NCBI GenBank assembly: GCA_002715985.1
Contig: PBAO01000017.1
Location: 1-33,689 of the forward strand
From: Lysobacterales bacterium
GTDB lineage: Bacteria > Pseudomonadota > Gammaproteobacteria > Nevskiales > Salinisphaeraceae
Direction: 5' to 3'
DNA length: 33,689 bases
In this document: positions 2,531-19,063 of the stretch, one piece after another
Numbering within the stretch: position 1 is the stretch's first letter
How the letters are laid out: the number at the start of each line of letters is the position of its first letter
Translations under genes and position numbers: made by a program
Notes under the pieces: model-generated
What the model saw: the letters and a program-made list of their open reading frames with translations, nothing else
Database searches by the model: none
Told to the model about the DNA's origin: nothing

Positions 2531-2598
2531 CGCGGGACTGCGCCGACTCGCGGCGCGCGAACTTCTGCGTGAAAAAACAATATCTTGCTCATACAGCG

Positions 2599-2627
2599 AT
2601 TGTCATGAGCCGGCCCCGATCTGACAA
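2599..2627 (-). promoter_or_regulatory. Candidate sigma70 promoter for rng
   Basis: On the minus strand TTGTCA (2627-2622) and GACAAT (2604-2599) are separated by exactly 17 nt, in the 135-bp gap between rlmH and rng. Each box matches the consensus at four or five of six positions. A 21-codon reading frame (ATG at 2592, beginning MSKILFFHAEV) lies between this promoter and rng, and its TGA overlaps the rng GTG. It could couple translation or be chance. Confidence 0.35.
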
Positions 2628-2665
2628 CTGAACAAACATCGTAGGCGCCCGATGAGCGAAAGCGA

Positions 2666-3136
2666 TTACGCCCGATGATAGGGGTGCCCGATGAGCATGC
2701 TGTGGGCCCTGAAGAGTTGCTCGGCAACGATCACACGAACCAGTGGGTGGGGCAGGGTCAATGCCGACAACGAGCGGCGGCTATCGGCGCGTTGACGCGA
2801 GGCCTGGCCCAACCCGTCCGGGCCGCCCACGAGAATTGCACGATCACGCCCGTCGGCCATCCAGTCGCGCAGATCGTTGGCCAGGGCCTGTGTCGACCAT
2901 GCCTTGGCATCGACATCGAGGGCGATGACGTGTTCATCGCGCCCGATGGCTCGGGTCATACGCTCGTCTTCAGCGGCGATCGCCCTGGCGGCATCGCTGG
3001 CCTGCTTGCGCATGCCGGGCGCGATCTCGACCAGCTCCAGGCGGCACTCACGCGGCAGGCGGGCGGCATAATCCGCGTAGGCGCTGGTCACCCATTTGGG
3101 CATCTTGCGGCCGACCGCGATCAGGCGGATACGCAT
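2666..3136 (-). CDS. rlmH: 23S rRNA (pseudouridine1915-N3)-methyltransferase RlmH
   Basis: RlmH is a small SPOUT-class methyltransferase that methylates pseudouridine 1915 in helix 69 of 23S rRNA, using S-adenosylmethionine on the assembled 70S ribosome. The 156-residue product has the family start (MRIRLIAVGRKMPKW), the SAM-loop region ILVGGPDGLG, a TLPHPLVRVIVAEQLFRA block and the diagnostic C-terminal IGHPYHRA. Length is almost identical to the E. coli protein. It sits 10 bp downstream of rsfS, and the rsfS-rlmH pairing is one of the most conserved in bacteria, so co-transcription is very likely. Confidence 0.96.
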   Translation of the reverse strand: MRIRLIAVGRKMPKWVTSAYADYAARLPRECRLELVEIAPGMRKQASDAARAIAAEDERMTRAIGRDEHVIALDVDAKAWSTQALANDLRDWMADGRDRAILVGGPDGLGQASRQRADSRRSLSALTLPHPLVRVIVAEQLFRAHSMLIGHPYHRA

Positions 3137-3146
3137 GACGAACCTG

Positions 3147-3563
3147 CTAGGTCGGCGAGCTGTTGGCTCCCGTGGTGGCCAGATCCACGTCCCAGAGTTT
3201 TTCGATCTGGTAATAGGCCCGTGTGACCGGCTGCATGATATGCACGACCACGCCGTTGAGATCGATGAGCACCCACTCGGCCTGGTCCAGGCCTTCGACG
3301 CGCGGTGCCAGGCCCTGGGCCTTGGCGTGCTGAACCACGGTCTCGCCGAGACGTTTGACGTGCCGATTGGTACGCCCGGTGCAGATCACCATGTGATCGG
3401 CGATCGTGGTCAGCTCGGCCACGTCGAAGACCTTGACCGATTCGCCCTTGAGCTCACCCACGGCATCCACGGCTAGCCGCAGCAGCGGCGCGTCGGCCGG
3501 AATATCGGCCAGGATATGATCAATCGCGGTGAGATCGGTGTTTTGTTCTTGTGCAACCATCAT
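3147..3563 (-). CDS. rsfS: Ribosomal silencing factor RsfS
   Basis: RsfS binds ribosomal protein L14 and blocks joining of the 30S and 50S subunits, dampening translation in stationary phase or starvation. The DUF143/Iojap core is clear: a LKGESVKVFDV segment, DHMVICTGRTNRHVKRL, then EWVLIDLNGVVVHIM and YYQIEKLWD. At 138 residues it is somewhat longer than the E. coli protein because of both an N-terminal extension and a short Ser/Thr-containing tail. The ATG at 3563 overlaps the nadD stop by four bases (ATGA), indicating translational coupling. Confidence 0.95.
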   Translation of the reverse strand: MMVAQEQNTDLTAIDHILADIPADAPLLRLAVDAVGELKGESVKVFDVAELTTIADHMVICTGRTNRHVKRLGETVVQHAKAQGLAPRVEGLDQAEWVLIDLNGVVVHIMQPVTRAYYQIEKLWDVDLATTGANSSPT

Positions 3564-4246
3564 GTGCTCTGCGCGCGGGGCGCGCGGTAGATATCGGTAT
3601 CCATAATGTCCTCGAGGATCACCTCGGGCAAGAGATAGCGGGGGCTGGCACCGGCGGCGATCAGTTCGCGGATACGGCTGGCGGATATCACCAGCGGCGG
3701 CGGCGCGTAACTGTATATCAAGCCGGTGGGCTGATTCTTCAAGGCGGCCGGATCACTCACCCCACGCTCGGCCAGCAGCTCCACGGCTTCCGGGGCCAGT
3801 TCGGCAGGCAGGCCGGGCCGCTCGATCAACACGATATGCGCGTGATCGAAGAGTTCCTGCCAGCGATTCCAGGACGGCAGTTTGGCAAAGACATCCCGGC
3901 CCATGATCAGACACAGCGGGTGCTCGGGGAAATCGCTGCGCAGCGAGGCCAGCGTGTCGACCATATAGCTGTGGCCTTCGCGCATCAGCTCGCGATCGTC
4001 CAGGGCCAGAAGCGGCTCGTCGGCGGTGGCCACACGGATCCACTTGGCACGCTGGCCGGGGGTGGCGCCGGGTTGCTCGCGGTGCGGCGGCCGGCCGTTG
4101 GGAATCAGGCGCACCTGGGCCAGGTCAAGCTCGGTGGCAAGCTCCATGGCCAGGCGCAGATGCCCGTTATGTACCGGATCGAACGTGCCGCCCAGAACAC
4201 CGATCGGGGCGCCGGCCGGCCCCAGGGGAGGTTGTTTAGCGGACAT
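3560..4246 (-). CDS. nadD: Nicotinate-nucleotide adenylyltransferase
   Basis: NadD transfers AMP from ATP to nicotinate mononucleotide, giving deamido-NAD in NAD biosynthesis. The 228-residue product shows the nucleotidyltransferase signature [15 protein letters not shown] near the N-terminus and the second ATP-binding motif ISASRIRE near the C-terminus. The reading frame extends upstream to 4387, but that part lies wholly within the proA 3' end. The ATG at 4246, giving [12 protein letters not shown] before the GGTFDP motif, yields the usual length and is preferred. It overlaps the proA stop by 11 bases. The chain proA-nadD-rsfS-rlmH is a standard proteobacterial operon. Confidence 0.94.
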
Positions 4247-5540
4247 GGCCATCGCCAAAGACGACATATTTCTGCGAGGTGAGCCCTTCCAGACCGACCG
4301 GGCCGCGGGCGTGCAGTTTATCGGTGGAGATGCCGATCTCTGCCCCCAGACCGTACTCGAAGCCGTCGGCGAAACGCGTGGAGGCATTGACCATGACCGA
4401 GGCCGAGTCCACGGCCCGAATGAAGATTCGGGCCCGGGTCACGCTTTCGGTGACGATGGCATCGGTGTGGTGCGAGCCCCAGCGCTCGATATGATCGATC
4501 GCGCTATCCATGTCGGGCACGATCTTCACCGCTAGCGTGGGGGCCAGATACTCGGCGGCCCAGTCGTCATCGGTTGCCGGCTCGATGCGCGGGCCGAGCC
4601 GTTTGCGGGTCTCGGCGCAGCCGCGCAGGGTCACCCCGGCCTGCATCAGGTTCTGAGCCAGTGGCTCGAGGATACGCTCGACCTGTGACTCGGCCACCAG
4701 CAGGGTTTCCATCGTGTTGCAGGTGCCATAGCGCTGGGTCTTGGCGTTCACGGCGATGGCCACGGCCTTTTCACGGTCGGCATCGTCATCGACATAGACA
4801 TGACAGACGCCGTCGAGATGCTTGATGACGGGCATGCGCGCGTTGTCGGCCACGAACTCGATCAGCCCCTTGCCGCCGCGCGGCACGATGACATCGATGT
4901 GCTCGGGCAGGGCCAGCATGGCCCCGACGGCGGCCCGATCCGTGGTGTCCACGATCTGGACGGCGTCTTTGGGCAGGCCGGCATCGGTGAGCCCGCGGGC
5001 CACGGCATCGGCGATCGCCTGGTTGGAGTGCACCGACTCCGAGCCGCCGCGCAGGATCGCGGCGTTGCCGGATTTCAGGCACAGCGCGGCGGCATCCGCC
5101 GTCACGTTGGGCCGCGACTCATAGATGATGCCGATCACGCCCAGTGGTACGCGCATACGCCCGACCTGGATACCCGACGGACGGAAGTTCATGTCCGTTA
5201 GGTTGCCGATCGGATCGGCCAGGGCCGCGACCTGACGTACGCCTTCGGCCATGCGCTCGATACGGGCCGGACTCAGCTCCAGTCGTTCGATGGCTGCATC
5301 GTCGAGCTGGCCGCGGGCGTCCTTCACATCGCGCGCGTTGGCCGCAAGGATGGCATCACTCTGGCTGATCAGGGCTTCGGCGATGGCAAACAGGGCCGCG
5401 TTCTTCTCGCCCGGCTCGGCCGCGGCCATACGCCGGGCCGCGCGACGGGCACGCTGGCCCATATCGCGGATCTGTCTATCGATTCGACCGTTCGGGCCAT
5501 CGTGGCCACCGCGGGCGGGTTCGCGAATGTTCGCGCTCAT
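4236..5540 (-). CDS. proA: Gamma-glutamyl phosphate reductase
   Basis: ProA reduces gamma-glutamyl phosphate to glutamate-5-semialdehyde with NADPH, the second step of proline synthesis. The 434-residue product belongs to the aldehyde dehydrogenase superfamily. It contains [20 protein letters not shown], the GGSESVHSN nucleotide region, [14 protein letters not shown], and the catalytic cysteine in [14 protein letters not shown]. The C-terminus [22 protein letters not shown] is typical. The frame is open far upstream (to 6416) through holA, but the ATG at 5540 overlaps the holA stop as ATGA and gives near-family length, so it is chosen. The N-terminus is about 15 residues longer than usual, and an internal ATG ([11 protein letters not shown]) is an alternative start. 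proB is not in the window. Confidence 0.94.
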
Positions 5541-6595
5541 GACAAAGGGCTCGCATGGAATGGGTCGTTGCCACAGACAATCGTCGGGGTCGCCCCCGAC
5601 AATGCAATGATCAATGTTATCAGTTCGTCCCAGGCGCGACCGCTTGCCGCGCCCTTGTTGATGGCATCGAGTCGTGCGGCCTGGCTCAACAGACGCGCCA
5701 GGCGCCGGGGCTCGGCCCGGCGCGCGGCCGTGGCCAGCGCGCGTTTGCGCGGGGCCGGCAGGAATATCTTGCCCAGATAGGCATCCAGCCGGTTGGCACG
5801 CGCGGCCAGAGCGGCCTGATAGAGCGTGCGCAGTTCCTTGACCAGCGCCCAGGTGATCGGCACCACGTCCACGCCCTCGGCACGCAGGCGCGACAGGCTT
5901 TTCAGCGCGCCCCGGGTATCGCCATCGACGGCCTTGGCCGGCAGATCGAAGATATCGAAACGGGCATGGTCGCTGGCCGCTTCGGCGACCTGGGCGCGCT
6001 CGATACGGGTATCCGGATACAACAGCGCCAGACGGTCGATCTCCTGGGCTGCGGCCAGGAGATTGCCTTCGTTCTGGGTGGCCAGTAGCTGGATGGCCTC
6101 GTCGGCCAGGTCGATGTTTTTCTCGTGTGCCCGCGCGGTTATCCAGGCCGTCATGCGCGAGGCCGGCAGGCCCCAGGCATAGCTGACCACGCCGGCCTTG
6201 GCCACGGCCTTGTACCAGGCGGCCTTGCGCGCCGAGCTGACCAGGCCGGGTGCAACGATCAAAAGCAGCGTGTCCGGCGTGTCGCGCTTGACGAAATCGA
6301 CGATGGCCGCGCTGCCGGCCTTGCCGCCGGGCCCCTTGTCCGGCAGATGCAGCTCGACGATACGGCGCTCGGCGAACAGGGACTGGGTGGCCCCGGCATC
6401 GGCCAGCTGCGCCCAATCGAAGCCGGGTTCGGCGTGCAGGATGTCTCGCTCGTCAAAGCCTTCACGCCGGGCACGGGCGCGCACGGCATCCGCGGCCTCG
6501 ACCACGTGCAACGGTTCCTGTCCGCCGATCAGATAACAGCGGGCCAAAGGATGCCGGGCGAATTCGCGTGCGAAATCCTCGGCGCGAATATCCAT
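5537..6595 (-). CDS. holA: DNA polymerase III subunit delta
   Basis: HolA is the delta subunit of the clamp-loader complex. It opens the beta clamp so that it can be placed on primed DNA. The 352-residue length matches the family. Recognisable parts are the N-terminal [20 protein letters not shown], the beta-contacting region around residues 60-85 ([18 protein letters not shown]), and the C-terminal collar region with [13 protein letters not shown]. In many gammaproteobacteria holA follows leuS and lptE. Here it follows speD by 10 bp, so the upstream context is rearranged. It overlaps proA by four bases and is probably co-transcribed with it. Confidence 0.92.
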
Positions 6596-6605
6596 CAGTG
6601 ATCCA

Positions 6606-7367
6606 TCAGTTGAAGTTGCGCCCGTAGAAGATGTCGGTGATTTCGCCGGCGATACGCTCGGTGAGCGTTTCTGCCTCCTCGGGCGTGAGATCGGCGGCGT
6701 TTTCGGCGAACAGATATTCGTCCAGATCGAATTCCGTCAGGCGCATCTTGGTATGAAAGATGCGCTCGGAGAGCACGTTGACATCCACCATCTGATACCG
6801 ATCCCGAATATCGGGGGCGATGTAGTCCTGAATCGAGGCGATCTTGTGGTCGATGAAATGCTTGCCTCCGTCAACATCGCGCGTGAAGCCGCGCACACGA
6901 TAATCCAGGGTCACCACGTCGGATTCGAAGCTGCGGATCAGGTGATCGAGTGCTTTCAACGGCGAGATCAGGCCGCAGGTCGAGACATCGATATCCGCCC
7001 GGAAGGTCGAGATGCCGTCATCCGGATGGAACTCCGGATAGGTATGCACCGTGATATGGCTCTTGTCGAGATGACCGACCACGGCATCGGGTGCCGGGCC
7101 TTCGTAGGCGGTCTCCTCGGCGATGAGGATCGTCACTGATGCGCCTTCCGGCTCATAGTCCTGGCGGGCGACGTTCAGGATATGCGCCCCGATCATGTCC
7201 GAGACCTCGGTGAGGATCTGGGTCAAGCGGTCGGCGTTGAACATATCGTCGAGATAGGCGATATAGGCTTTTTTCTGTGCCTGCGTACGGGCATAGCAGA
7301 TGTCGTAGATATTGAACGACAACGATTTTGTCAGGTTGTTGAAGCCATGCAGCCGGAGTTTGTCCAT
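6606..7367 (-). CDS. speD: S-adenosylmethionine decarboxylase proenzyme
   Basis: SpeD decarboxylates S-adenosylmethionine to provide the aminopropyl donor for spermidine. It is made as a proenzyme that cleaves itself and turns a serine into the catalytic pyruvoyl group. The cleavage motif [14 protein letters not shown] is intact, with the scissile K102-S103 pair. The following blocks [43 protein letters not shown] and [16 protein letters not shown] are diagnostic of the longer E. coli/Pseudomonas type. The ATG at 7367 ([12 protein letters not shown]) gives 253 residues; the frame runs on upstream to 7520 without family similarity. No speE is adjacent, so the aminopropyltransferase must lie elsewhere. 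The osmC-like gene is upstream by 80 bp. Confidence 0.96.
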
Positions 7368-7447
7368 GTAGGGCGGTTCCGCGTCGGGCCGGGGAAACGA
7401 GGGCGGGCAGGTATCGGGACGGTGTGCTTGCCCCGTCGACCCATCGC

Positions 7448-7867
7448 TCAGTCGGCAGCTTCGATGGTATAGCCGTGCGTCATGTTGACGGTTTCTTGCA
7501 GCATGATCGAAGCCGAGCAATATTTCTCGGCCGATAGCTCCACCGCACGCGCAACGTGTTTTTCCTTGAGGTCATGCCCGGTCACGATGAACTGGACATG
7601 GATATCGGTGAACACCTTCGGCTCGGTCTCGGCGCGTGTGCCGTCCAGCTCGATCCGACAGCCCGTCACATCTTGGCGCGATTTCTTCAGGATATGCATG
7701 ACATCCATCGCGCTGCAGCCCCCCACGGACAACAACAGCATCTCCATGGGCCGAAAGCCCGCATTCTCGCCGCCCAGGTCGGGCGGGCCATCGATCGTGA
7801 TTTCGTGTCCCGAATCAGCCGTGCCGGTGAAGGCCAGGCCCTGGTGCCAGTCGAGTGTCGCTTTCAT
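7448..7867 (-). CDS. OsmC family protein (YhfA-like)
   Basis: OsmC/Ohr-family proteins reduce peroxides through a pair of cysteines. The YhfA subgroup next to crp and speD is less well characterised. The 139-residue product starts [15 protein letters not shown] and has the two family cysteines, one in [14 protein letters not shown] and the other in [12 protein letters not shown]. The ATG at 7867 matches the usual YhfA start; an in-frame ATG five codons upstream (7882) is possible. The order osmC-like then speD is the same as in Pseudomonas, where crp/vfr precedes the osmC-like gene. Here the upstream neighbour is the non-coding end of the TSP3 block. The catalytic activity is inferred from family only. 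Confidence 0.88.
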
Positions 7868-8407
7868 TGCCCTGGACGCCATGCTTGGTTGTAACAGTTA
7901 CGTGGGGACGATAATGCCGGAAAAAAGTCGTCGATTCGCGATTGCCGGCCAAACTTATGTGATGCGTGTGCTTGCCTCGAAGAGCCCGGCCGTGTGTCCG
8001 GTGGACGAGTCGGTGCCCTGCGGTGTTGCCCGTCGCGTCTCGTCGGGCACGGCAGGCGACCAAAAGCGCAGCGCTTGCACACGATATCGACAAGCCTCGG
8101 CAAGACCCGATGCCGTCGGCATCCGAGGCGCTGGCGGGCTGGGCGACAACGTGCGTTGTGAATAGCCAGGCCAGCCGATGGGTCGATATCAGATATGCCC
8201 TGCTCTGTGAAAGCGCTTGATTTGCCCGGGCTTCGACGCAGAACCACCTGTCGGCCGTTGCGGGCTGAGGGGGCATGTGACCCGCTGATCGGCAATGAAT
8301 ATCGTGTTTTCAGGCCGGTGTGTGAGCGTGGCCGCCAAGCTGAATCGTCGTCCGGCTCAACGCCGGGTTGCTCTCCATACGCCGAAAACATCGCGGACGA
8401 AGCGCGC
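7868..8407. other. Non-coding spacer between the osmC-like gene and TSP3 gene A
   Basis: About 540 bp without a convincing gene. Open frames exist on both strands but are rich in Arg, Ser and Ala, lack SD sequences and resemble no family I know. A short inverted repeat GTAAC-a-GTTAC (7891-7901) lies about 24 bp upstream of the osmC-like ATG and could be a regulator site. This is the place where crp/vfr stands in Pseudomonas-type genomes, and I see no remnant of a crp helix-turn-helix or cAMP-binding domain. Confidence 0.6.
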
Positions 8408-8438
8408 AAAAAAAGAGGCGCGACTTTCGTCGCGCCTC
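8408..8438 (-). terminator. Intrinsic terminator of TSP3 gene A
   Basis: A perfect 10-bp stem (8415-8424 with 8429-8438, GAGGCGCGAC/GTCGCGCCTC) has a 4-nt loop. On the minus strand it is followed by seven T residues (8414-8408). It lies 41 bp after the stop of gene A. A smaller hairpin with a GAAA tetraloop (8453-8466) sits between the stop codon and this terminator. Confidence 0.93.
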
Positions 8439-8479
8439 GAATGCGTCTACCGGCGCTTTTCAGCGCTTCTATTTAGGGC

Positions 8480-11400
8480 TCAGTTCGTATCGATCGCCGG
8501 CGCAACACAGGCCGAGTAAAGATCGTAACGGGTGAGGGCCTGGAGCACGCCTCCGAAACGCAGCCTGACGGCATCGAACGTTTCGTTGGTGCGTGTGGTG
8601 ACAGCCATGCGGTCGCCGTCCGTGCTTAGCAGGCGGAGCGCCAGCAGATTGCCGCTCCCATTGCCGTCGACAACGTTGCCATCGTTGAGCAGCACCAGGG
8701 AGATGTTGTCGAGCAGGCCAACATCCAACAGGCCGCCTTGCTTGCCGATGATGAAGGCGACCCGCGTACCGCTGCCGCTGTAGTCACGCGCGGTATCGGT
8801 CACGGTCGTGTTTACCGGGCCGGCCAGGTTGGCACCGATCGTTAGTTCGGCAGCGTTGTCCAGGTTGTCGTCGATCAGATTGTTTCGATCCTCCAACCCG
8901 CTCAGGCCAATCAGTCCGCCACCGTCGAAGTCGACCGTTGCATTGGGCTCGATGATCGGCTGGAACGCCGAGTTGCCGCCACATGCGATCTGCTGGTTGC
9001 CATCACAGGCATCGCCCACGCCGTCACCGTCGGTGTCGCGCTGGTCGGCGTTGGGTGTCGTCGGACAGTTGTCATCACAGTTCGAGGTTTCCCCGTCCAT
9101 GCAGCGATTGTCGTCGGGTGAGCCCGAGTTGTCGCCGTCATCGAGCACGCCGTCGCCGTCATTGTCTGGATCACAGGCATCACCCTGGCCATCACTGTCG
9201 GTATCGGTCTGGTTCGGGTTGGCCACGTTCGGGCAGTTGTCGTTGCCGTTCGTGACGCCGTCGTTGTCGTTATCGCCCATGTCGTTGTTCGGATCATCGT
9301 CACAGACATCGCCAACGCCGTCGTTGTCGCTGTCCATCTGATCCGGGTTGGCGTTTACCGGGCAGTTGTCGTTGCCGTCGGTGACGCCGTCGCCGTCGTC
9401 ATCGGTGTCGCAGACATCGCCCGTGCCGTCGCCGTCGGTATCGGCCTGGTCATTATTGGCCGTCATCGGGCAGTTGTCGTTGCCGTTGTTGACGTCATCA
9501 CCGTCAATGTCGTCATCGCAGGCATCGCCGATGCCGTCGCTGTCCGTATCCATCTGGTCCGGATTGGCGGTCATCGGACAGTTATCGACGCCGTTGTCGA
9601 CCCCGTCGCCGTCGTCGTCGGTGTTCATGTCACCGCCGCCGTTGGGCGTGCCGTCACAGGCATCGCCCATGCCGTCGCCGTCGGTATCCGTCTGGTTCGG
9701 ATTGGCGGTCATCGGGCAGTTGTCGTTACCGCCGATGACGCCATCGCCGTCCGGGTCGTCGTTGTTGTTGTCGCAGACATCGCCAATTCCGTCGCCGTCC
9801 ATGTCGGCCTGACTCGGGTTAGCGGTCATCGGACAATTGTCGTTGTTATCGGCGATTCCATCGTTGTCGGTATCCATGCCGCCGTTGGGCGTGGGATCAC
9901 AGACATCGCCGAACCCGTCACTATCGGTGTCAATCTGATCTGGGTTGGCCACTCTGGGACAGTTGTCGTCACCGTTGTTGACGTTGTCGCCGTCCTGGTC
10001 GCCCGAGCCGTCGCCGGGCTGGTTGTCACAGACATCGCCAATGCCGTCATTGTCCGAATCCGTCTGGTTCGGATTGGCGTCCATCGGGCAGTTATCCATC
10101 ATGTTGGTCACGCCGTCGCCATCGGTGTCCATATCCGGATTGCTACCGTTGGGCGTGGGATCACAGGCATCCCCCGTGCCGTCGCTGTCGCTGTCGGCCT
10201 GATCCGAATTGGCGACCAACTGACAGTTGTCGTTGCCATCGGCCACGCCGTCGCCGTCGTCATCGGCGTCGCAAACGTCGCCCATGCCATCGCCGTCGAT
10301 ATCGGCTTGATCAGCGTTGGCCGTCATGGGGCAGTTGTCCTGCCCGTTGGGCGTGCCGTCGCCGTCGTTGTCACCGTTGGGGTCGACGCCGTTGCCATCG
10401 GGCGTCGCGTCGCAGGCGTCACCCAAGCCGTCGTTGTCACTGTCCTGCTGATCGGGGTTGGCGGCCATCGGGCAATTGTCATTGCCGTCGGCGACGTTAT
10501 CGCCGTCCATGTCCGTCGGATCGTTGTTGCCGTTCGGTGAATCATCACAGGCGTCACCGATGCCGTCCTGATCGGAATCGGCCTGATTCGGGTTCGCTGT
10601 CATCGGGCAGTTGTCGTTGACGGCGGGAATATTATCGCCGTCCTGGTCACCGCCTTGCGGGGTTTCATCGCAAACATCACCGAAACCGTCGCCGTCGGCA
10701 TCCGTTTGATCGGGGTTGGCGACGATCGGGCAGTTGTCAGCGTCGTTATTGGTGCCGTCGTCGTCGAGATCGTCCGGGTCACCGTTGGGTGAGCCGTCGC
10801 AGGCATCGCCTACGCCGTCGCTATCGGCGTCGGTCTGATTGGGGTTGGCAACCGTCGGACAGTTGTCCTGTCCGTCGCGCACACCGTCATCGTCTCCGTC
10901 GCTTTCGTCGTTATTGGCGTCGCAGGCATCGCCGACGCCGTCACCGTCGTCATCACTTTGACCGGGGTTGGAAACTCTCGGGCAGTTGTCTGTCCCGTCA
11001 GCGACACCGTCATCGTCACCGTCGGTTGCGCCCGGGAAGCGATCACAGAGATCACCGACCCCGTCACCATCCGAATCTCGTTGATTCCTGTTGGGGATGA
11101 GAGGGCAGTTGTCATTGCCATTGGCGATGCCATCACCATCCCGATCATCGCCGGCTGGGGACTCGTCGCAAAGGTTGCCAAAGCCGTCGCCATCGGCATC
11201 GCCTTGATCGGTATTGGGCGTCAGCGGGCAATTGTCCATGCCGTTAGCAACATCGTCGCCGTCGCGATCGTTATCGCAGGCGTCCCCGTCGCCGTCGTTA
11301 TCGGTATCGACCTGGTCCGCGTTGGCCGACATTGGACAATTGTCGTTGTCGTCCACGACCCCGTCGTTGTCCCCGTCAACGACCTGGCCGGAATCGTTAC

Positions 11401-11512
11401 CATTATCTTTGTCATCGTTGCCAAGATCGACATTCTTGTCGTCACTGCAGCCACTTAAAAAAAGCGCGCAGGCAACAAGGCTGGCTGTAGCCAGAGATCT
11501 CATCCCCAACAT
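8480..11512 (-). CDS. TSP3-repeat calcium-binding outer-membrane lipoprotein A (19 repeats)
   Basis: The 1010-residue product starts with a lipoprotein signal ending in the lipobox LSGC (Cys22). The +2 residue is Ser, so outer-membrane sorting is expected. After a short Asp/Asn linker come 19 thrombospondin type 3 repeats (about residues 46-838) of the form DNCPxxANPxQxDxDxDGxGDxCD, separated by DGDGVxNG-like linkers. In this family the acidic side chains wrap calcium ions and the cysteines pair. Repeat 10 has DNCQ in place of DNCP. Before the last repeat there is a Cys-containing insert (NRCMDGETSNCDDNCP). Residues 842-1010 form a module shared with genes B and C. The SD is GAGGGAG, 7 nt before the ATG at 11512. 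The ATG at 11503 is a weaker alternative. The role is not known; a calcium-dependent surface or adhesive function is inference. Confidence 0.9.
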   Translation of the reverse strand: MLGMRSLATASLVACALFLSGCSDDKNVDLGNDDKDNGNDSGQVVDGDNDGVVDDNDNCPMSANADQVDTDNDGDGDACDNDRDGDDVANGMDNCPLTPNTDQGDADGDGFGNLCDESPAGDDRDGDGIANGNDNCPLIPNRNQRDSDGDGVGDLCDRFPGATDGDDDGVADGTDNCPRVSNPGQSDDDGDGVGDACDANNDESDGDDDGVRDGQDNCPTVANPNQTDADSDGVGDACDGSPNGDPDDLDDDGTNNDADNCPIVANPDQTDADGDGFGDVCDETPQGGDQDGDNIPAVNDNCPMTANPNQADSDQDGIGDACDDSPNGNNDPTDMDGDNVADGNDNCPMAANPDQQDSDNDGLGDACDATPDGNGVDPNGDNDGDGTPNGQDNCPMTANADQADIDGDGMGDVCDADDDGDGVADGNDNCQLVANSDQADSDSDGTGDACDPTPNGSNPDMDTDGDGVTNMMDNCPMDANPNQTDSDNDGIGDVCDNQPGDGSGDQDGDNVNNGDDNCPRVANPDQIDTDSDGFGDVCDPTPNGGMDTDNDGIADNNDNCPMTANPSQADMDGDGIGDVCDNNNDDPDGDGVIGGNDNCPMTANPNQTDTDGDGMGDACDGTPNGGGDMNTDDDGDGVDNGVDNCPMTANPDQMDTDSDGIGDACDDDIDGDDVNNGNDNCPMTANNDQADTDGDGTGDVCDTDDDGDGVTDGNDNCPVNANPDQMDSDNDGVGDVCDDDPNNDMGDNDNDGVTNGNDNCPNVANPNQTDTDSDGQGDACDPDNDGDGVLDDGDNSGSPDDNRCMDGETSNCDDNCPTTPNADQRDTDGDGVGDACDGNQQIACGGNSAFQPIIEPNATVDFDGGGLIGLSGLEDRNNLIDDNLDNAAELTIGANLAGPVNTTVTDTARDYSGSGTRVAFIIGKQGGLLDVGLLDNISLVLLNDGNVVDGNGSGNLLALRLLSTDGDRMAVTTRTNETFDAVRLRFGGVLQALTRYDLYSACVAPAIDTN
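8483..8989 (-). other. Shared C-terminal module of lipoprotein A
   Basis: Residues 842-1010, beginning IACGGNSAFQP. Landmarks shared with B and C are NLIDDNLDNAAEL, TVTDTARDYSGSGTRVAFI, GLLDVGLLDNISLVLLNDG, TFDAVRLRFGG and the closing YSACV. The first and last cysteines are kept in all three proteins. The inner CxxC seen in B and C is replaced here by LIGL. The predicted fold is a beta-rich sandwich, by inference from alternating hydrophobic residues. Confidence 0.7.
8999..11377 (-). repeat. 19 tandem TSP3 repeats in gene A
   Basis: Coding repeats of roughly 36-46 codons. The conserved core is DNCP-x5-NxxQxDxDxDGxGDxCD, and linkers vary in length (NDRDGDDVAN to DGNGVDPNGDNDGDGTPN). Repeats 13-17 are the most alike (most with MTAN after DNCP), suggesting recent amplification inside the array; earlier repeats are more diverged. 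The nucleotide repetition makes the region prone to expansion, contraction and assembly error. Confidence 0.9.
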
Positions 11513-11589
11513 GTATTTGCTCCCTCGTAGCGACGGTTCGTTTGGTTAGTTCGTCGTGCTATCGATCCTCCAGCAGTTCGCTATCTGCG

Positions 11590-11730
11590 TCTAAGTCTTC
11601 GTTTCAGCTAAATTATTGACTACAATTTATTTGTTATAGACACAAAATTTTAATATTAAAAATCAATTAATTATTGGTATTTTCTTCATATGGAATAAAA
11701 TTCCATTTTTTTTAAAAATGCTGTTTTTCA
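11590..11730 (-). promoter_or_regulatory. AT-rich promoter region of TSP3 gene A
   Basis: A strongly AT-rich stretch of about 140 bp in an otherwise GC-rich window, located 80-220 bp upstream of the gene A ATG. On the minus strand it contains TCTATAAC (11640-11633), whose TATAAC is a possible -10 box. A similar TCTATAAAA occurs in the corresponding region upstream of gene B. No convincing -35 is seen at standard spacing. It may hold UP elements or be a target of an H-NS/MvaT-type silencer; both are inference. Confidence 0.5.
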
Positions 11731-12252
11731 AAAATCCGGCGCCAGAAAAAATCCGCCGGCGTTTGGACCTATCGCTTGATTCAATTGGCGGGCTCGCGCG
11801 ATTTCATGAAGCCCCGCGTCGGGGTTCGGGCAATGAATGACTCGCTCGATGAACAGGGTCGCGATCGGTTCGGCCGACGGCACAGCGGGCACACGCACTT
11901 TATTGCCGACTTATGCGCCGGCGAATGCTGACCGCCTGGCCCAGGCGAGCGATCCAATCCTGAGAGCGTGCGGGCCCGTCGCGTGGACGACGAATCCGAC
12001 AGGCCCGGTGCACAGACCGCGGTATTGCGCGCTTCCCAGCGCCTAACCAGCCGTGTTTCGCGGAATGCCGGGCAGCATGATGTGTCGCCGATGTATTCGG
12101 CCGATCGCCGTGCCCGCTCGTATGAGCGTTCTGGCCGCGCGGCTGTTGCCATGCAACGACCGGGCGCCACCCTTGTCGAGAAGAATCGTGAACCGGAATG
12201 CGACAGCCCGGGCCAAGCAGGGACAGGGCCGCAGGATCTGGCGAAACACAAT
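11731..12252. other. Non-coding spacer between TSP3 genes A and B
   Basis: About 520 bp of normal GC content with no supported gene. Reading frames of up to 168 codons exist on the minus strand, but they begin inside the gene B terminator hairpin, have no SD and are rich in Arg, Pro and Ser. At 11738-11761 there is a 6-bp GC-rich stem (CCGGCG/CGCCGG) followed by T residues on the minus strand, a weak terminator-like element just before the AT-rich region. Confidence 0.55.
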
Positions 12253-12282
12253 AAAAAAGACGCGATCCGTGGATCGCGTCTT
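12253..12282 (-). terminator. Intrinsic terminator of TSP3 gene B
   Basis: A 12-bp inverted repeat (12257-12268 with 12271-12282, AAGACGCGATCC/GGATCGCGTCTT) is followed on the minus strand by a short T tract. It lies about 46 bp after the stop of gene B. The stem core GCGATCC/GGATCGC is nearly the same as in the gene C terminator (GTGATCC/GGATCAC). Confidence 0.9.
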
Positions 12283-12328
12283 GTCATGGGCGCCCCTCGT
12301 TGCCGAGCGGCGTATTACGGCTAGCGGA

Positions 12329-14509
12329 TCAGGGCGTCAACAGATCACCCACACCGCCGAGCAGACCGCCCAGCACATCGCCGAGCGTGGTTCGCAGATT
12401 GCTCAGGGCATCGACCAGGCCAGCGCCGGCCCCGGTCTGTGATCCATCCTGAAGATTAGACAGATCCAGATTGTCGAGGGCGCTTTCCAGTGATGACAAG
12501 GCATTGTCGACATCGCCGACGTTGTTGTCGCCCGTCAAGCTCAAGTTCGACAACGAGTCGTCGAGCGTATCCAGGGCGTCGGACAGGCCGCTCGACAGAC
12601 CGGTTGTTCCATCGTTCAGATTAATGGCGTCGATCGAGCTTTTGATGTTGGTCAGAAGGCTCTCGAGCACGTCGTTGTCAATGTCATCGCCGCTGTCGGC
12701 CAGGCGGTTCTGGAGCTGACTCAGCGTGTTGGTCAGTGTCTCGACGGGATCGTCATTGCCAAGCACGGACGTCAACTGCATACGGAGCTGGTCGAGGCCC
12801 TGTGTGATCGCGCTGTCATCCATGCCGCTCAGGTCGGCATCGGCCAAGGAGGCCAGAAGGGATTGCAACGGGTTGTCGGCGCTGCCGTCCTGCACGCTTT
12901 CTATCGTGCCGTTTAGGTTGTCGAGCAGGTTGACCAGTGGGTCGGATACCGCGCCGTTCGAAGCATCGAGCTGCGTGATGGCCACTTGCAGTTGGCTGAG
13001 TGCGCTCTGTGCGGCATTCGACAAGGCCTCGCCGGCATCCTGATTGGCAAGCGCATCACGAACCTGCATCAGCGCGTCGCGTACGGCGGCACTGGCGTCA
13101 CCGCTGTTGTTGTCGCCCAGCCCGGACAGGGCCCCCTGAAGCTGGCTCAGTGTGTTCTCCAGCGGGCTGTCGCCGTTGCCAGCGTCCGGATCGAATCCAT
13201 TCAGGCCGGTCGTGAGACTTGTCACCAGATTGTCGAGCGAGAGGTCGCCCCCGGCCATCGTCAGCTGCGATAGCTGCCCCTGGAGGGTCATGAGCGCCGC
13301 GTTCACATCACTCGACAGGCCCTGGGTGTCACCGGCATTCAGCGTGGCGGCCAAGGCGTCGGTAACCTGCGTGACGGCATCATTGAGCCCATCGCTTACC
13401 GCGTTGTCGTTGCCGAGATCGGTGAGCTGTGCGGTCAGTCCCGACAGGGCGTCGGAGAGTCGGTCGGTATCGGTGATATCACCGCCGTCGGGGATCGTGC
13501 CGTTCTGTACACAGGCCGCGAATACATCGACGTTCGAAAGCGCATTCACGCCGCCGTTCAACCGCAGGCGGATGGCATCGAAAGTCTGGTTGGTCTGCAC
13601 GAGCGCCAGCTGACGGCTGTTGTCGCCGATCAGGCCCAGCAGGTCCAGATTCAACAGGTCCGAGTCGTTCGAATCGGCGACTTCTTCGCCGTCGTTGAAC
13701 AGGGTGACATCCAGGCTACGAATCAGATCGAGCGTCAAGACATTGTCTGGGCGTGCCAGGATGAAACCGACGCGACGATTCCCCGTGTAATCCTGACTGC
13801 CGGTCACCGTGATGAAGGCGCTGCCGCCCAGGGCGCCGACCGTGGTGTTCAGACGGGCCGCGTTGTCCAGATTGCTGTCGATGGCGTTGTTCGGATTCTG
13901 TACGCCGCAGAGCAGGCAGACGCCGTCGGTGCCGGCGGCCACGCTGACGTCATCACTGTTGTCGTCGGCGTTCGCGATCGGCGAGAACGCAGCGTTGTCG
14001 CCGAAGCTGCAGGAGGACGCCGCGACGTCCGAATCGGTATCGCATACATCGCCAACACCGTCGCTGTCGGTATCGGTCTGATCCGGGTTGGGTGTGGTCG
14101 GGCAGTTGTCGTTGTCGTTGTTGACGCCGTCACCGTCTGCGTCGCCGTCTCCATTGCCCTGGTCGCCATCGCAGGCGTCACCGATGCCGTCGCCGTCGGC
14201 GTCCTGTTGGTCCGGGTTGGACGTCAGCGGACAGTTGTCCGGGCCGTCGGCGACACCGTCATCATCGTCGTCGCTGTCGCAGGCATCGCCCATGCCATCG
14301 CCATCGGTATCGATCTGATCCGGATTCGCGATCGCCGGGCAGTTGTCGTCGTTGTCGTTGATGCCATCGCCGTCGTTATCGACGGGCTGCATGCTGTCGT
14401 CGCCATTATCGGTTTGGCCAAGATCGACGTTCTTATCGTCGCTACAACCGGTGACCAGTAGCGCACAGGCTACGAGGCCGGTCGCTCCCCAGTAACGTAT
14501 ATCGAACAT
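12329..14509 (-). CDS. TSP3-repeat lipoprotein B with long helical C-terminal extension
   Basis: The 726-residue product starts with a lipoprotein signal (lipobox VTGC, Cys22) and the CSDDKNVDL sequence also found in A. Only three TSP3 repeats follow (about residues 44-160). Next comes the shared module (166-336), which here includes the inner CLLC pair and NPNNAIDSNLDNAARL. The remaining ~390 residues (345-726) are unique to B. They are rich in Leu, Asp, Ser and Asn, with recurring segments like LSDALSGLTAQLTDL, ENTLSQLQGALSGL and DALDTLDDSLSNLSL, separated by DxxNxD-type turns. They contain no cysteine and probably form a repetitive helical rod, ending in a Gly/Leu-rich tail (VLGGLLGGVGDLLTP). 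The SD AAGGGG lies 7 nt before the ATG. Function unknown; it may be an extended surface protein. Confidence 0.88.
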   Translation of the reverse strand: MFDIRYWGATGLVACALLVTGCSDDKNVDLGQTDNGDDSMQPVDNDGDGINDNDDNCPAIANPDQIDTDGDGMGDACDSDDDDDGVADGPDNCPLTSNPDQQDADGDGIGDACDGDQGNGDGDADGDGVNNDNDNCPTTPNPDQTDTDSDGVGDVCDTDSDVAASSCSFGDNAAFSPIANADDNSDDVSVAAGTDGVCLLCGVQNPNNAIDSNLDNAARLNTTVGALGGSAFITVTGSQDYTGNRRVGFILARPDNVLTLDLIRSLDVTLFNDGEEVADSNDSDLLNLDLLGLIGDNSRQLALVQTNQTFDAIRLRLNGGVNALSNVDVFAACVQNGTIPDGGDITDTDRLSDALSGLTAQLTDLGNDNAVSDGLNDAVTQVTDALAATLNAGDTQGLSSDVNAALMTLQGQLSQLTMAGGDLSLDNLVTSLTTGLNGFDPDAGNGDSPLENTLSQLQGALSGLGDNNSGDASAAVRDALMQVRDALANQDAGEALSNAAQSALSQLQVAITQLDASNGAVSDPLVNLLDNLNGTIESVQDGSADNPLQSLLASLADADLSGMDDSAITQGLDQLRMQLTSVLGNDDPVETLTNTLSQLQNRLADSGDDIDNDVLESLLTNIKSSIDAINLNDGTTGLSSGLSDALDTLDDSLSNLSLTGDNNVGDVDNALSSLESALDNLDLSNLQDGSQTGAGAGLVDALSNLRTTLGDVLGGLLGGVGDLLTP
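13502..14014 (-). other. Shared module of lipoprotein B (internal position)
   Basis: Residues 166-336. It matches the C-terminal modules of A and C through NPNNAIDSNLDNAARL, RRVGFILARPDNVLTLDLI, LDVTLFNDGEEV, TFDAIRLRLNGG and FAACV. B shows that the module can be internal and followed by another domain. Four cysteines (one near the start, the CLLC pair, one in FAACV) could form two disulphides. Confidence 0.7.
14030..14380 (-). repeat. Three tandem TSP3 repeats in gene B
   Basis: Three repeats with cores [40 protein letters not shown] and DNCPTTPNPDQTDTDSDGVG, each closed by a DACD or DVCD. The calcium-binding Asp pattern is intact in all three. The contrast with 19 and 15 repeats in the neighbouring paralogues is the main difference. 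Confidence 0.9.
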
Positions 14510-14599
14510 TGGAATTCCCCTTGTCTATCCGATGGGACCGGAAGTGTCCACCGGTTGGTTCGATATTCGCCAGTCGGTTTTGCTCGAGTCAAACTTCTT

Positions 14600-14740
14600 T
14601 CAAAAGCCGTCCGTTAGTTAGATTTTCGTGAATTTTAAGTATTTGATTTTAGTAATTTAAATTTTCTTTTATAGAATCTGGTCGACTGCAATCAGTTTGT
14701 GTGATGCTTTTTTCGGTATATTATTGGCGCAAATTGATTG
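14600..14740 (-). promoter_or_regulatory. AT-rich promoter region of TSP3 gene B
   Basis: An AT-rich stretch at the same relative place as the one upstream of gene A, roughly 90-230 bp before the ATG at 14509. On the minus strand TTCTATAAAAG (centred near 14671) contains a possible -10 box TATAAA (14673-14668). A CTGATT 16 nt upstream is a poor -35. The shared TCTATAA motif upstream of A and B suggests a common promoter type, which is an inference from two sequences only. Confidence 0.45.
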
Positions 14741-15274
14741 GTCACGATCATTAACATTGGTGACAAGCGCTGAGCCCGGTACCTGCTATTGAAGTTGGGT
14801 CACAGCGCAAGAAGGCCATCGTCCGCCATACCTGTTGTCCGGGGAGCGTAGTCTTGCCTGGACGTTCTTGAAACGCATACGGTTTCTTTCGGCGGGCGGG
14901 TTTGCCCCGGCATCGCGAACACCGTATCCAACGCTGCGTCGCTTGCCGGCGGCGGTTGGCGGTGTCCGCTCGAGCTCTGGATACGCGGGGCCGTTGTGTA
15001 ACAGTTCGTGTTACTCGCACGCTGATCGACCCGCCGCATGCCGCTGCTGCGACATACATGATGTCGCTGAATATGATCACGTTGGGCCAGTGCAGAGCCG
15101 CCGAGGGGGCGCCCTGACGGCGCTCGCCGGGGTTGGAGCCCATGAATGCAGCGGTGTTGTAGCGGCCTGTGCCAGGCACCGGCCCATGCCGAGCTCCACG
15201 CGATTCGATGCACAACCGTCTCTGGGACGCTGCCGGGCGCGGCAATCGTGCGTCAGTTGTGTGGTGCGTTGGCC
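14741..15274. other. Non-coding spacer between TSP3 genes B and C
   Basis: About 530 bp with no supported gene; the open frames present have no SD and no family resemblance. An inverted repeat GTAACA-5 nt-TGTTAC (near 14999-15015) is a possible regulator site and resembles the GTAAC repeat upstream of the osmC-like gene. The length and layout parallel the spacer between A and B. Confidence 0.55.
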
Positions 15275-15306
15275 AAAAAAAAGGCGTGATCCGAGGATCA
15301 CGCCTT
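15275..15306 (-). terminator. Intrinsic terminator of TSP3 gene C
   Basis: A 12-bp inverted repeat (15281-15292 with 15295-15306, AAGGCGTGATCC/GGATCACGCCTT) is followed on the minus strand by a run of eight T residues (15282-15275). It lies about 53 bp after the gene C stop, just past a second hairpin. Confidence 0.93.
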
Positions 15307-15327
15307 TATATCGCGTCATGCGATGAG

Positions 15328-15351
15328 CGAGCCGGTACGAATACCGGCTCG
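15328..15351 (-). other. Stable UUCG-loop hairpin after TSP3 gene C
   Basis: A perfect 10-bp stem (15328-15337 with 15342-15351) has the loop TTCG when read on the minus strand. It starts 8 bp after the stop codon of gene C and precedes the true terminator. It could protect the mRNA 3' end. On the plus strand it is followed by TTTT, so weak bidirectional termination is possible. Confidence 0.6.
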
Positions 15352-15358
15352 TTTTCGG

Positions 15359-17974
15359 CTAGCGGGGCTGTCTTACGCAGACCGCGGAGACATCCACGAT
15401 GCTGCCGATATTGGCCAGTCCGCCGACCAGTACACGCCCTGCATTGAAGGGCTGGTCGGAACTGAAGACCAGTGCTTGCTGGGTCACGTCGTTGATCACG
15501 TTGAACAAGGTCTTCGTCAACGGCAGGTTGCCGAGCGTCGAGGCGAGCACGCCGTTATTGAGCGTCTCGAACGACACGGATGAAAGCAGGCTGCGACTGA
15601 GCAGGCCGCCTTCACGCGAGACCAGGAAGGCGACTTCCGAGCCGGCCGGGAACATTTGCGCCGTATCCGTGACCGTAAGGCCCGCGTTGCTGAGCACGTT
15701 GAACGGGATCGAGATACGCGAAACGTTATCCGGGTTGTCGTCGATCAGGTTCTCCGGGTTGCGAACCGAGCAGCCGAGACAGAACGGCGAAACCTGACGG
15801 TTCACTTGTGCCGTGTGGCCGGTGATCGGAACGAAATCCTCGTTCATGCCACAGGCAATGGCATTGCTCGAGTCGCAGGCATCGCCCACGCCGTCACCGT
15901 CGCGGTCTTCCTGGTCGGCGTTCGGTGTCAGCGGACAGTTGTCGTCGCAGTGAGTGCGATCGCCATCGGTACAGACTTTGTCACCTTCGGTGCCCGAGTT
16001 GTCGCCGTCGTCCAGTATGCCGTCATCGTCGTCATCGGTGTCACAGGCATCACCCTGACCGTCGCCGTCGGTATCCAGCTGGTCGGCGTTGGCCATGTTC
16101 GGGCAGTTGTCGTCGTTATTGTTTACGCCGTCACCGTCGACATCGTTGTCGTTGGTGTCATCGCAGGCATCGCCCACACCGTCTTGGTCGGTGTCTGCCT
16201 GCTGCGGGTTGGCCGTCAGCGGGCAGTTGTCCGAGCCGTTGTCGATGCTGTCGTCGTCCTTGTCGTTGTCACAAGCATCGCCGACGCCGTCGTTATCGGT
16301 ATCCAGCTGATTCTGGTTCGCCGTCATCGGGCAATTGTCGACGTCGTCGTCGATGCCGTCGTGATCCGAATCGTTCATCTGATCCGGGGTGTCGTCGCAG
16401 ACATCGCCCACGCCATCACCATCACTGTCTTTCTGATCGGGGTTGGCGATCATCGGGCAATTGTCGACGTCGTTGTTGGTGCCGTCACCATCGGTGTCTT
16501 TGTCGTCGTCTTCGTTACCGTTGTCGGTATCGCAGGCGTCGCCGATGCCATCGTTGTCGACGTCATTCTGGTTGGGGTTGGCCGTCATCGGGCAGTTGTC
16601 GGTTTCGTTGGGGATCCCGTCGCCATCCGAATCGTCGTTATTGCCGTTGTCGCCGTTATCCGTGCCGTCGCTCGGATCACAGACATCACCCAGGCCATCG
16701 CCGTCGTGGTCTTCCTGTTTCGGGTTGGCGATCATCGGGCAATTATCGTTGACGTCGTCGATACCGTCGCCGTCGGAGTCGTTGCCCGTCTCGTTGTTAT
16801 CGGAATCGCAGGCGTCGCCCACGCCATCGCCGTCGCTGTCGGCCTGATCAGGATTGGCTAGGGCCGGACAGTTGTCGGTGCCGTTGTCGATGCCGTCGTC
16901 ATCACGGTCGGTGTCGCACACGTCGCCGATGCCATCGCCGTCGGTGTCGATCTGGTCAGCGTTGGGGGTGACAGGGCAGTTGTCGTCGCAGTTTTCGGTA
17001 TTGCCGCCGGTGCAGGCGTTATCGCCTTCGCCGTCGGCCGGGTTACCGCCCGTGTCGCCGTTGTCGTCGCCGGGGCCGCTGTTGTCGCCGTCGTCCGGAA
17101 TGCCGTCGTTGTCGTTATCCGGGTCACAGACATCGCCAACGCCGTCGCGATCGGTGTCGAGCTGATCGGGGTTGGCAATCAGCGGGCAGTTGTCGACCGG
17201 ATCATTGATGCCGTCGCCGTCGGTGTCATGCGCCGAGTCGTCGCCGTCCGGCGTGCTGTCGCAGACATCGCCGATGCCGTCGTCATCCGAATCCTGCTGG
17301 TTCGGGTTGGCGTTGACCGGGCAGTTGTCGCTGCCATCGGGAATGCCGTCGCCGTCGTCGTCGGTATCACAGACGTCGCCCAGGCCGTCGTCGTCGCTGT
17401 CGAGCTGGTCAGCGTTCGGGATGGTCGGACAGTTGTCCATTTCGTCGTTGATGCCGTCACGATCGGTGTCGTTCGGCGTATTTGGCGTGGCGTCGCAGGC
17501 ATCGCCCTGGCCGTCGTCATCGCTGTCGGTCTGGTCCGGGTTCGAGACGTCGGGACAGTTGTCGGTATTATCCGGCACGCCGTCCATGTCGTCGTCGTTG
17601 GGCGTATTCGGGGTGTCGTCACAGGCATCGCCGACGCCATCATTGTCCGAATCTTCCTGGTCCGGATTGGCCACGAGCGGGCAATTATCGCGATCGTCAT
17701 TGATGTCGTCGTCATCGTCATCGGAATCGCAAGCGTCACCGAAACCATCGCCGTCGGTGTCTTTCTGATCGGCATTGGGCACCATCGGGCAATTGTCATC
17801 GCCGTCGGCCACACCGTCATTGTCGTCATCGGGCATCTGGCCGGGGGTATCGGGCGCGCCGCTCCCGTTGCCATTGTTGCCGTTCAGGTCTACATCCTTG
17901 TGATCGCTACAGCCTGTGATGGCAAGAGTGCACGCCATCAAAGCTGCAAAGAACACATATCGTATGCTTTGCAT
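15359..17974 (-). CDS. TSP3-repeat calcium-binding outer-membrane lipoprotein C (15 repeats)
   Basis: The 871-residue product has a lipoprotein signal with lipobox ITGC (Cys22, Ser at +2) and the family start CSDHKDVDL. Fifteen TSP3 repeats (about residues 49-703) follow, then the shared module (706-871) with the inner CLGC pair, [16 protein letters not shown] and a final SAVCV. Two Cys-containing inserts occur, before repeats 7 and 15. Both have the pattern DDGDNSG, an acidic stretch, one Cys, then CDDNCPxTPNADQ, and the same pattern is found once in gene A. The SD AAAGGGAG stands 7 nt before the ATG. It is the first TSP3 gene downstream of the trp operon but is separated from it by a terminator and has its own promoter. 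Calcium binding is well founded; the cellular role is unknown. Confidence 0.9.
15362..15859 (-). other. Shared C-terminal module of lipoprotein C
   Basis: Residues 706-871, starting [11 protein letters not shown]. It carries the same landmarks as in A and [55 protein letters not shown] and a closing Cys. Four cysteines are present, as in B. This copy is the most diverged of the three around the [15 protein letters not shown] segment. Confidence 0.7.
15866..17830 (-). repeat. 15 tandem TSP3 repeats in gene C
   Basis: Cores such as [20 protein letters not shown] and [20 protein letters not shown] are each closed by a DACD or DVCD. Linkers are longer and more varied than in A, for example [16 protein letters not shown] and [20 protein letters not shown]. 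The duplicated Cys-containing insert divides the array into two blocks: repeats 1-6 before the first insert and repeats 7-14 before the second, with repeat 15 after it. Confidence 0.9.
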
Positions 17975-17998
17975 CCAACCGCTCCCTTTGCAGGTATG

Positions 17999-18016
17999 GC
18001 CGATTTTTGGATCGGC
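17999..18016 (-). promoter_or_regulatory. Hairpin in the 5' leader of TSP3 gene C
   Basis: A 6-bp stem GCCGAT/ATCGGC with the loop CCAAAA when read on the minus strand. It lies between the predicted transcription start and the SD of gene C. It may tune translation or mRNA stability. The leader is too short for a known riboswitch. Confidence 0.35.
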
Positions 18017-18034
18017 TCGTTATTGAGAGAGCGG

Positions 18035-18063
18035 AATTTCGATTGCGCCCAATTTTTTGTCAA
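18035..18063 (-). promoter_or_regulatory. Candidate sigma70 promoter of TSP3 gene C
   Basis: On the minus strand a perfect -35 box TTGACA (18063-18058) is followed after 17 nt by a weak -10 GAAATT (18040-18035). It lies just after the terminator of the trp operon and about 60 bp before the gene C ATG, so gene C should be transcribed independently of trpC. Confidence 0.5.
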
Positions 18064-18081: not shown

Positions 18082-18103
18082 AAAAAAAACGACCGCACGG
18101 TCG
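18082..18103 (-). terminator. Intrinsic terminator of the trp operon
   Basis: On the minus strand a short GC-rich hairpin (CGACCG/CGGTCG, 18090-18095 with 18098-18103) is followed by eight T residues (18089-18082). It lies about 120 bp after the trpC stop. A 12-bp perfect palindrome GAAAGCGCTTTC (18108-18119) stands just before it. Confidence 0.8.
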
Positions 18104-18226
18104 CCCTGAAAGCGCTTTCGCTAACAGTAAAATCTATATTTTCACGATCGGCATGGGGCTTGCCGGAGTGAGGCTACGTCAGTTTTTTCGTCATGATCGC
18201 GCTTTTTTTCGGCGATATTCTGAATC

Positions 18227-19063
18227 TCAAAATACGGTTTTATCGTGCAAAGGCGTGTCAACAGATGTGCCGAGCAATGCCCTTAGAGCCGTGGCCGGGT
18301 CGGGTTGTCGCATGAACGATTCGCCGATCAGAAACGCGCCGAAATCGGCCGTGGCCAGACGGGCCATGTCCTCGTGGGTGAAAATCCCGGACTCGCTGAC
18401 GAGCAGGCGCGTCGGGGCCACGTGCTCGCGTAGAACAAAACTCGTGTCGAGGGTGGTCTCGAATGTTTTCAAATCACGATTATTGATGCCGAGGATGGTG
18501 TCATCGGGCAACGTCAGAACACGGTCAAGCTCGTCCCGGGTATGCACTTCGGCGAGCACATCCATGCCCAGCTCGCGGGCTCGACCGGCCAGTTCGGCCA
18601 TGAGATCGGTCGACAGCGCGGCGGCGATCAACAGGATGCAATCGGCCCCGAGCGCACGCGACTGATCGATCTGTATGGGATCGATCATGAAATCCTTGCG
18701 TAGCACGGGCAGTCTGCACGCGTTTCTGGCCCGGGCCAGAAAATCGTTGTCGCCCTGGAAATAATCGCGATCGGTGAGCACTGACAGACAGGCGGCCCCG
18801 CCGGCGGCATAGCGTTCGGCCAGCCAGGCGACGTCGAAATCCTCGCGGATCAGCCCCTTGCTGGGCGATGCCTTCTTGATCTCGGCGATGATTGCACGCG
18901 GCGCCTTGGCCGCCAACGCCGCGGCAAAACCACGAGGCGCATCGGCGGCAGCGATCTGGTCGGCCAGACGGGCGGGGTCCAGCCCGGCGCGATAGGCGGC
19001 GATCTCTTCGTGCTTGGTGGCCAGAATACGGTCGAGCACGGTATGGGTCGTCTGAACGCTCAT
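18227..19063 (-). CDS. trpC: Indole-3-glycerol phosphate synthase
   Basis: TrpC closes the indole ring, converting carboxyphenylamino-deoxyribulose phosphate to indole-3-glycerol phosphate. The 278-residue TIM-barrel protein has the signature IIAEIKKASPSKG. It also carries CLSVLTDRDYFQGD, LRKDFMIDPIQIDQSRALGAD, ILGINNRDLKTFET and the phosphate-binding LLVSESGIFTHEDMARL. It is a single-function enzyme, not fused to TrpF. It follows trpD after 5 bp and is the last gene of the trp operon here. trpF, trpA and trpB are not in the window, which is the split arrangement usual in pseudomonads and relatives. Confidence 0.97.
   Translation of the reverse strand: MSVQTTHTVLDRILATKHEEIAAYRAGLDPARLADQIAAADAPRGFAAALAAKAPRAIIAEIKKASPSKGLIREDFDVAWLAERYAAGGAACLSVLTDRDYFQGDNDFLARARNACRLPVLRKDFMIDPIQIDQSRALGADCILLIAAALSTDLMAELAGRARELGMDVLAEVHTRDELDRVLTLPDDTILGINNRDLKTFETTLDTSFVLREHVAPTRLLVSESGIFTHEDMARLATADFGAFLIGESFMRQPDPATALRALLGTSVDTPLHDKTVF

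Follow-up and report, generated by a model that had tools for sequence, protein, structure and literature searches.

Within a window of 33,689 nucleotides (the whole stretch of DNA analysed here: positions 1 to 33,689 of contig PBAO01000017.1, assembly GCA_002715985.1, filed as a Lysobacterales bacterium), three consecutive genes, which we call A, B and C, encode paralogous proteins, those of B and C being distinct rather than interchangeable. The genome is that of a member of Salinisphaera, a salt-loving genus. With our confidence evenly balanced, we propose that the three products are outer-membrane lipoproteins presenting glycan-binding heads on calcium-stiffened TSP3 stalks. As paralogs exported by the Sec pathway, they would be lipidated at Cys22 and delivered, most likely, to the outer membrane; each would there carry a stalk of 3, 15 or 19 TSP3 units, made rigid by calcium and by a disulfide in each repeat, with a beta-sandwich head of the F-type-lectin/CBM32 class at its end. 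The heads most likely would bind glycans, whether of the cell's own exopolysaccharide or of neighbouring cells or surfaces, at differing distances from the membrane. The architecture of A, B and C is well supported; the disulfides, the glycan binding, the surface exposure and the ruler-like role of stalk length are what we infer.

All coordinates are those of the window unless a locus is named, and every feature located by them lies on its minus strand. Gene C (15359..17974) encodes a lipoprotein of 871 amino acids with 15 TSP3 units (stalk, 15863..17833) and a C-terminal module; gene B (12329..14509) one of 726 amino acids with three units (14018..14383), the module and a long tail; and gene A (8480..11512) one of 1010 amino acids with 19 units (8993..11383) and a module that lacks a CxxC pair. 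These gene coordinates and repeat numbers, counted here on units anchored at the DNC motif, are as the original prediction had given them, and its reading of a lipobox at Cys22 followed by a CSD start holds in all three: the lipobox is LSGC in A, VTGC in B and ITGC in C, the signal peptide was read from the sequence, and the residues from the cysteine onward are CSDHKDVDL or CSDDKNVDL. Lipidation at Cys22 is probable, and the residues after the cysteine, together with the lipobox, suggest placement in the outer membrane.

The TSP3 assignment was likewise upheld, Pfam TSP_3 scoring 463.7 bits in A (E = 1.1e-142), 86.8 in B (7.1e-25) and 382.3 in C (3.3e-117) against a cut-off of 25, with 18, 2 and 13 stretches, respectively, passing individually. 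All 36 genome-wide TSP_3 matches fall within A, B and C, in an assembly about 82% complete. By phmmer, a 167-residue stretch of A (9338-9838) matched COMP and thrombospondin structures with E-values from 4.8e-47 (COMP, 3fby) to 4.7e-22, and its Asp-rich stretches align with those of COMP; the stalks are putative calcium binders. In all 37 units the second cysteine stands exactly 20 residues after the first, and a cysteine pair in every unit would suit one disulfide per repeat. The likeness to known TSP3 proteins (PF02412; COMP and thrombospondin; the linker of TraB, an OmpA-like protein, as described in the excerpt of PMC12045341) lies in the repeat itself, which has sites rich in Asp and cysteines in pairs; the difference is that A, B and C use the repeat as a lipid-anchored stalk under another head, and at E 0.001 Pfam yielded TSP_3 only in the three proteins, with no OmpA domain. 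Of 41 genomes, the window's own and those of relatives, 32 have TSP3 above the cut-off, and a stalk so common among them is in itself ordinary. A special repeat with an extra cysteine pair, the DNSG unit, lies beside the head in A, in C, in the ortholog of C in S. japonica YTM-1 (G013) and in the third S. japonica protein discussed below; C and its ortholog hold a second, inner copy, and a pattern search found the unit in no further fetched locus. Together with the tail of B, the DNSG unit seems to divide the proteins into two types: (i) B, with a short stalk, a head and a tail, and (ii) A and C, with a long stalk, a special last repeat and a terminal head.

The head is a common module of about 170 amino acids (A, 8495..8992; B, 13490..14017; C, 15362..15862). 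The modules of A and C matched alignment A1 with E-values of 1.9e-80 and 3.3e-81, an alignment that contains both; the module of B was modelled on its own. The single C-terminal module earlier attributed to all three is indeed shared, if diverged: that of B is 42% and that of C 34% identical to that of A in a three-way alignment, and in the comparison made with a 25-row module tree the three heads are 30-37% identical, B and C sharing 30%. The description needs refining at two points: B runs about 386 amino acids past the module, in a tail (12332..13489) that A and C lack, and the module of A is without CxxC. The tail is predicted to be helical; it is shared by the B-type orthologs aligned in A3 but is missing from locus L052. 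Searches of Pfam, NCBIfam and PDB matched the module by sequence to none of F-type lectins, CBM32 and F5/8 type C domains, and among the Pfam matches of 13 modules up to E 1 neither PF00754 nor PF22633, the F5/8 type C families, occurred. This absence of a sequence match sets the module apart from those three groups, as do the missing fucose motif and a cysteine pattern of its own, a CxxC plus a terminal cysteine; of 66 order-wide rows, 60 retain one and 63 the other of the two CxxC cysteines (three short rows of 69 were dropped for this count, and the rows are partly redundant). The fold is predicted, from a structural model, to be a galactose-binding-like beta-sandwich as in F-type lectins and CBM32. 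The top eight VIA rows are all modules that bind sugars.

Several observations weigh against the glycan-binding, surface-borne stalk proteins that we propose. The full-length model of B was poor (pLDDT 45, its module included), and the helices of its tail come from this low-confidence model; the Foldseek TM-score was only 0.48. A profile comparison of the module with F5/8 type C by hhalign was weak (16 columns around the motif, probability 1.8%, E = 0.027, with 0.15 for the reversed control), and the global-mode comparison gave no match. Of the cation motif hhDGx of F-type lectins, the strict form hhDG[NDS] occurs in only six of 69 module rows, the looser hhDx[NDS] occurring anywhere in the module in 52. 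The fucose motif, HX24RXDX4(R/K) in F-type lectins according to the excerpt of PMC5712786, was found in none of the 69 when sought as HX24RX[DE]X4[RK]. In alignment A4, which has 13 modules, every module except that of A has the CxxC pair. The slot that the three genes occupy, between trpC and an osmC-like gene, is nearly empty in five of 13 genomes of the genus (G003, G007, G008, G011 and G012; 97-193 bp from trpC to the osmC-like match), and the head of A has lost its CxxC; the system is therefore dispensable. Lastly, no Slam-type exporter was matched in 14 genomes of the genus, a result that shows nothing, as the controls gave no match either.

Two rivals are serious. In one, the head has an F5/8-type fold but plays a structural part or binds proteins instead of sugar, and the lipoproteins serve as an envelope scaffold or in mutual binding (cohesion). 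The fold by itself gives no ligand, and the Foldseek rows include SUN domains, with an intraflagellar-transport protein present in both the Foldseek and the VIA rows; set beside the lack of the fucose motif, this keeps a head of that kind in consideration, but the sugar-binding modules that fill the first eight VIA rows speak against it, and we hold it to be possible though doubtful. The other rival would place the proteins in the periplasm, anchored in the inner leaflet of the outer membrane, where an acidic stalk and head would bind envelope glycans or buffer calcium. A stalk of 15-19 repeats would be long for the periplasm, and the variation in repeat number among the paralogs and, for C, between species (15 and 17) would be better suited to outward presentation. 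Such a location does agree with the strong acidity of the proteins (net charge at pH 7 of -236, -112 and -213 for A, B and C), and with the presence of the lipobox alone, no known surface-export system having been found in the 14 genomes by a search without a positive control. We regard a periplasmic role as rather unlikely, if well worth weighing, and retain surface presentation of a glycan-binding head as our proposal.

Automatic naming would suggest something else, namely cohesion proteins like MtsC. The NCBIfam model for MtsC, NF047638, scores 532.7 bits in A and 446.6 in C against a cut-off of 350, and the likeness is a long TSP3 array; these scores are spread over 11 matched stretches in A and nine in C, the best ones within the repeats, and B, at 86.1 bits, is below the cut-off. 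According to the excerpt of PMC11980579, MYXO-CTERM consists of a Cys motif, a transmembrane helix and an Arg cluster. A and C end in the module, with neither transmembrane helix nor Arg cluster by eye, so that MYXO-CTERM is missing; all three proteins differ from MtsC in having an N-terminal lipobox and another C-terminal domain, followed in B by the predicted helical tail. We consider it very improbable that A and C are MtsC-like cohesion proteins. Both also exceed the cut-off of NF045500, for an Omp28-related selenoprotein, through their TSP3 repeats, and both identities were rejected as driven by repeats. Pipelines may misname A and C after the myxobacterial cohesion protein because of these repeats, and the name MtsC is unwarranted. 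The same excerpt writes MstC for what seems to be the same protein as MtsC. Among the literature matches listed, no title concerned these Salinisphaera proteins.

On the minus strand the order is trpC, C, B, A, the osmC-like gene and then speD. The spacers, put at about 800 bp by the original prediction, measure 849 bp (C-B) and 816 bp (B-A), and the independent transcription units that it proposed are favoured by a terminator after each gene. In S. japonica the stem of the terminator of C (15280..15307) still pairs after two changes, a two-sided compensatory one and another to G-U, and that of B (12257..12282) shows one two-sided compensatory change; a terminator-like site follows A (8415..8438, from a hairpin scan) and another separates trpC from C (18086..18107, within or beside 143 bp that S. 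japonica shares at 86% identity). A terminator scan of the region returned 20 sites against 11.0 expected, those after trpC, C, B and A being the first four listed. A single operon for C, B and A was rejected because a terminator-like hairpin follows every one of the genes and two of these hairpins show compensatory changes, and separate transcription, as predicted from these signals, is well supported. A candidate sigma-70 promoter of C, noted by eye (18035..18063), consists of TTGACA (18058-18063), a 17-nucleotide spacer and GAAATT (18035-18040); its hexamers and spacing also occur in the S. japonica spacer, its -10 element matches the consensus at only three of six positions, and the scan that gave the terminator-like sites does not list it. 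AT-rich stretches lie upstream of B and of A (by eye). The two spacers resemble each other only over a 30-bp terminator stretch, and the idea that they are duplicated DNA was rejected for that reason. Rfam found no structured RNA at its gathering score between positions 7000 and 18300.

Orthologs of C and B, 86% and 88% identical, respectively, lie in the same order in S. japonica. Between the window and S. japonica, the ratio of nonsynonymous to synonymous substitution rates (dN/dS) is 0.16 for C and 0.09 for B, versus 0.05-0.07 for trpC, trpE and trpG; by part, it is lowest in the module of B, at 0.05, and highest in that of C, at 0.18. Both genes are under purifying selection. The orthologs of B each have three units, and those of C have 15 in the window versus 17 in S. 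japonica. The same trio, sought in relatives, was thus recovered in part: S. japonica has at least three genes, with C and B in order, and the third differs. In the place of A stands a 509-amino-acid protein of seven units with an ordinary signal peptide and, by eye, no lipobox, whose head is 33% identical to that of A. The S. japonica contig stops 179 bp past this third gene and the osmC-like gene begins another contig, so that more genes are possible there.

The trpC-osmC slot is variable within the genus. It is flanked upstream, on the same side in relatives, by trpC (indole-3-glycerol phosphate synthase; 18227..19063; Pfam IGPS, E = 3.7e-86) and downstream by the osmC-like gene (7448..7867), named by eye only, beyond which lies speD (S-adenosylmethionine decarboxylase; 6606..7367; NCBIfam TIGR03331, E = 1.9e-128; start placed from orthologs). 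We searched 14 genomes of the genus with trpC and the osmC-like protein; each was present in 13, and G010, with a match to neither, was excluded from the slot counts (n = 13). Beside the three genes of the window genome and the at least three of S. japonica, a single B-type gene occupies the slot in four genomes (Salinisphaera sp. Q1T1-3, G001; G004; S. hydrothermalis C41B8, G006; and G009), one tail-less relative with five TSP3 units in S. shabanensis E1L3A (G005), and in G002 (L090) about 1.7 kb holding no TSP3 gene but one for a LysR-type regulator and a small exported open reading frame on the opposite strand (names by eye). The record of G009 (L049) is titled Endozoicomonas sp. G2_2; its trpC-TSP3-osmC-speD locus is of Salinisphaera type and the collection groups it in the window's genus, so the title looks wrong. 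The B-type protein of Q1T1-3 (L040, 6227-8734) carries a long Gly-Ser/Asp-Gly low-complexity insert between TSP3 units 2 and 3, which is perhaps another means of lengthening the stalk.

These comparisons bear on the original prediction that the genes form a set of interchangeable, perhaps alternately expressed, surface variants. Such a set would be compatible with the separate terminators, with a slot that varies by lineage and with the different third gene of S. japonica. It fits poorly with the retention of B and C, in order and under purifying selection, with heads only 30-37% identical, with the different domain order that its tail gives B, and with the occurrence of the B type alone in four genomes and of a tail-less relative in a fifth. 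We consider interchangeable variants improbable: B and C are conserved as orthologs and the third gene differs, which argues that exchange is possible at the third place only.

Across the order, 67 of 85 genomes have the module; within the genus it was detected in seven of 14 genomes, and in none of three others of the family. A class-wide spread of 369 genomes gave five matches, two of them (G121 and G386) outside the order, and a genome-contig scan added Microbulbifer taiwanensis and M. litoralis as carriers. With the module of B as the query, tblastn found no plasmid or phage match. Among 80 module-bearing open reading frames (starts inside the fetched locus, best-scoring loci only, and redundant through overlapping loci), a simple pattern recognises a lipobox in 71, and TSP3 is present in 49; other stalks under the module look, by eye, immunoglobulin-like (Ig-like) or Gly/Thr-rich. 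Neighbouring module genes occur in threes in L059 and L060 and in twos in L062, L064, L066, L070, L071 and L076, all from one other genus of the order (g13); in L059, L060, L064, L070 and L071 adjacent module genes lack TSP3, several being on Gly/Thr-rich stalks.

The trio of M. taiwanensis (L046, about 1300-10498) resembles that of the window in having three consecutive same-strand lipobox genes with TSP3 units (35, 16 and 9) and the same C-terminal module; it differs in having no B-like tail and in its indicated origin, since the 25-row tree joins them to the M. litoralis module (support 100/99), which suggests an independent duplication. Long branches keep A and the third S. japonica gene from a firm placement in the module tree. 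The row nearest to A by path is a Microbulbifer module (39% identity), a proximity that we do not read as kinship.

Tentatively, and with more doubt than conviction, we postulate that the module is a new, unnamed family of calcium-dependent lectins borne on lipoproteins found across the order with exchangeable stalks (TSP3, Ig-like or Gly/Thr-rich), and that the tandem copies, with separate origins in Salinisphaera and Microbulbifer, may be molecular rulers that would hold their various glycan-binding heads at unequal distances above the outer membrane. The novelty lies in the head domain, which is defined but has no name, and in its tandem arrays; the prediction of its fold and ligand class can be tested. 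Trios of unequal stalk length occur in two lineages and would serve as a natural experiment on the importance of that length.

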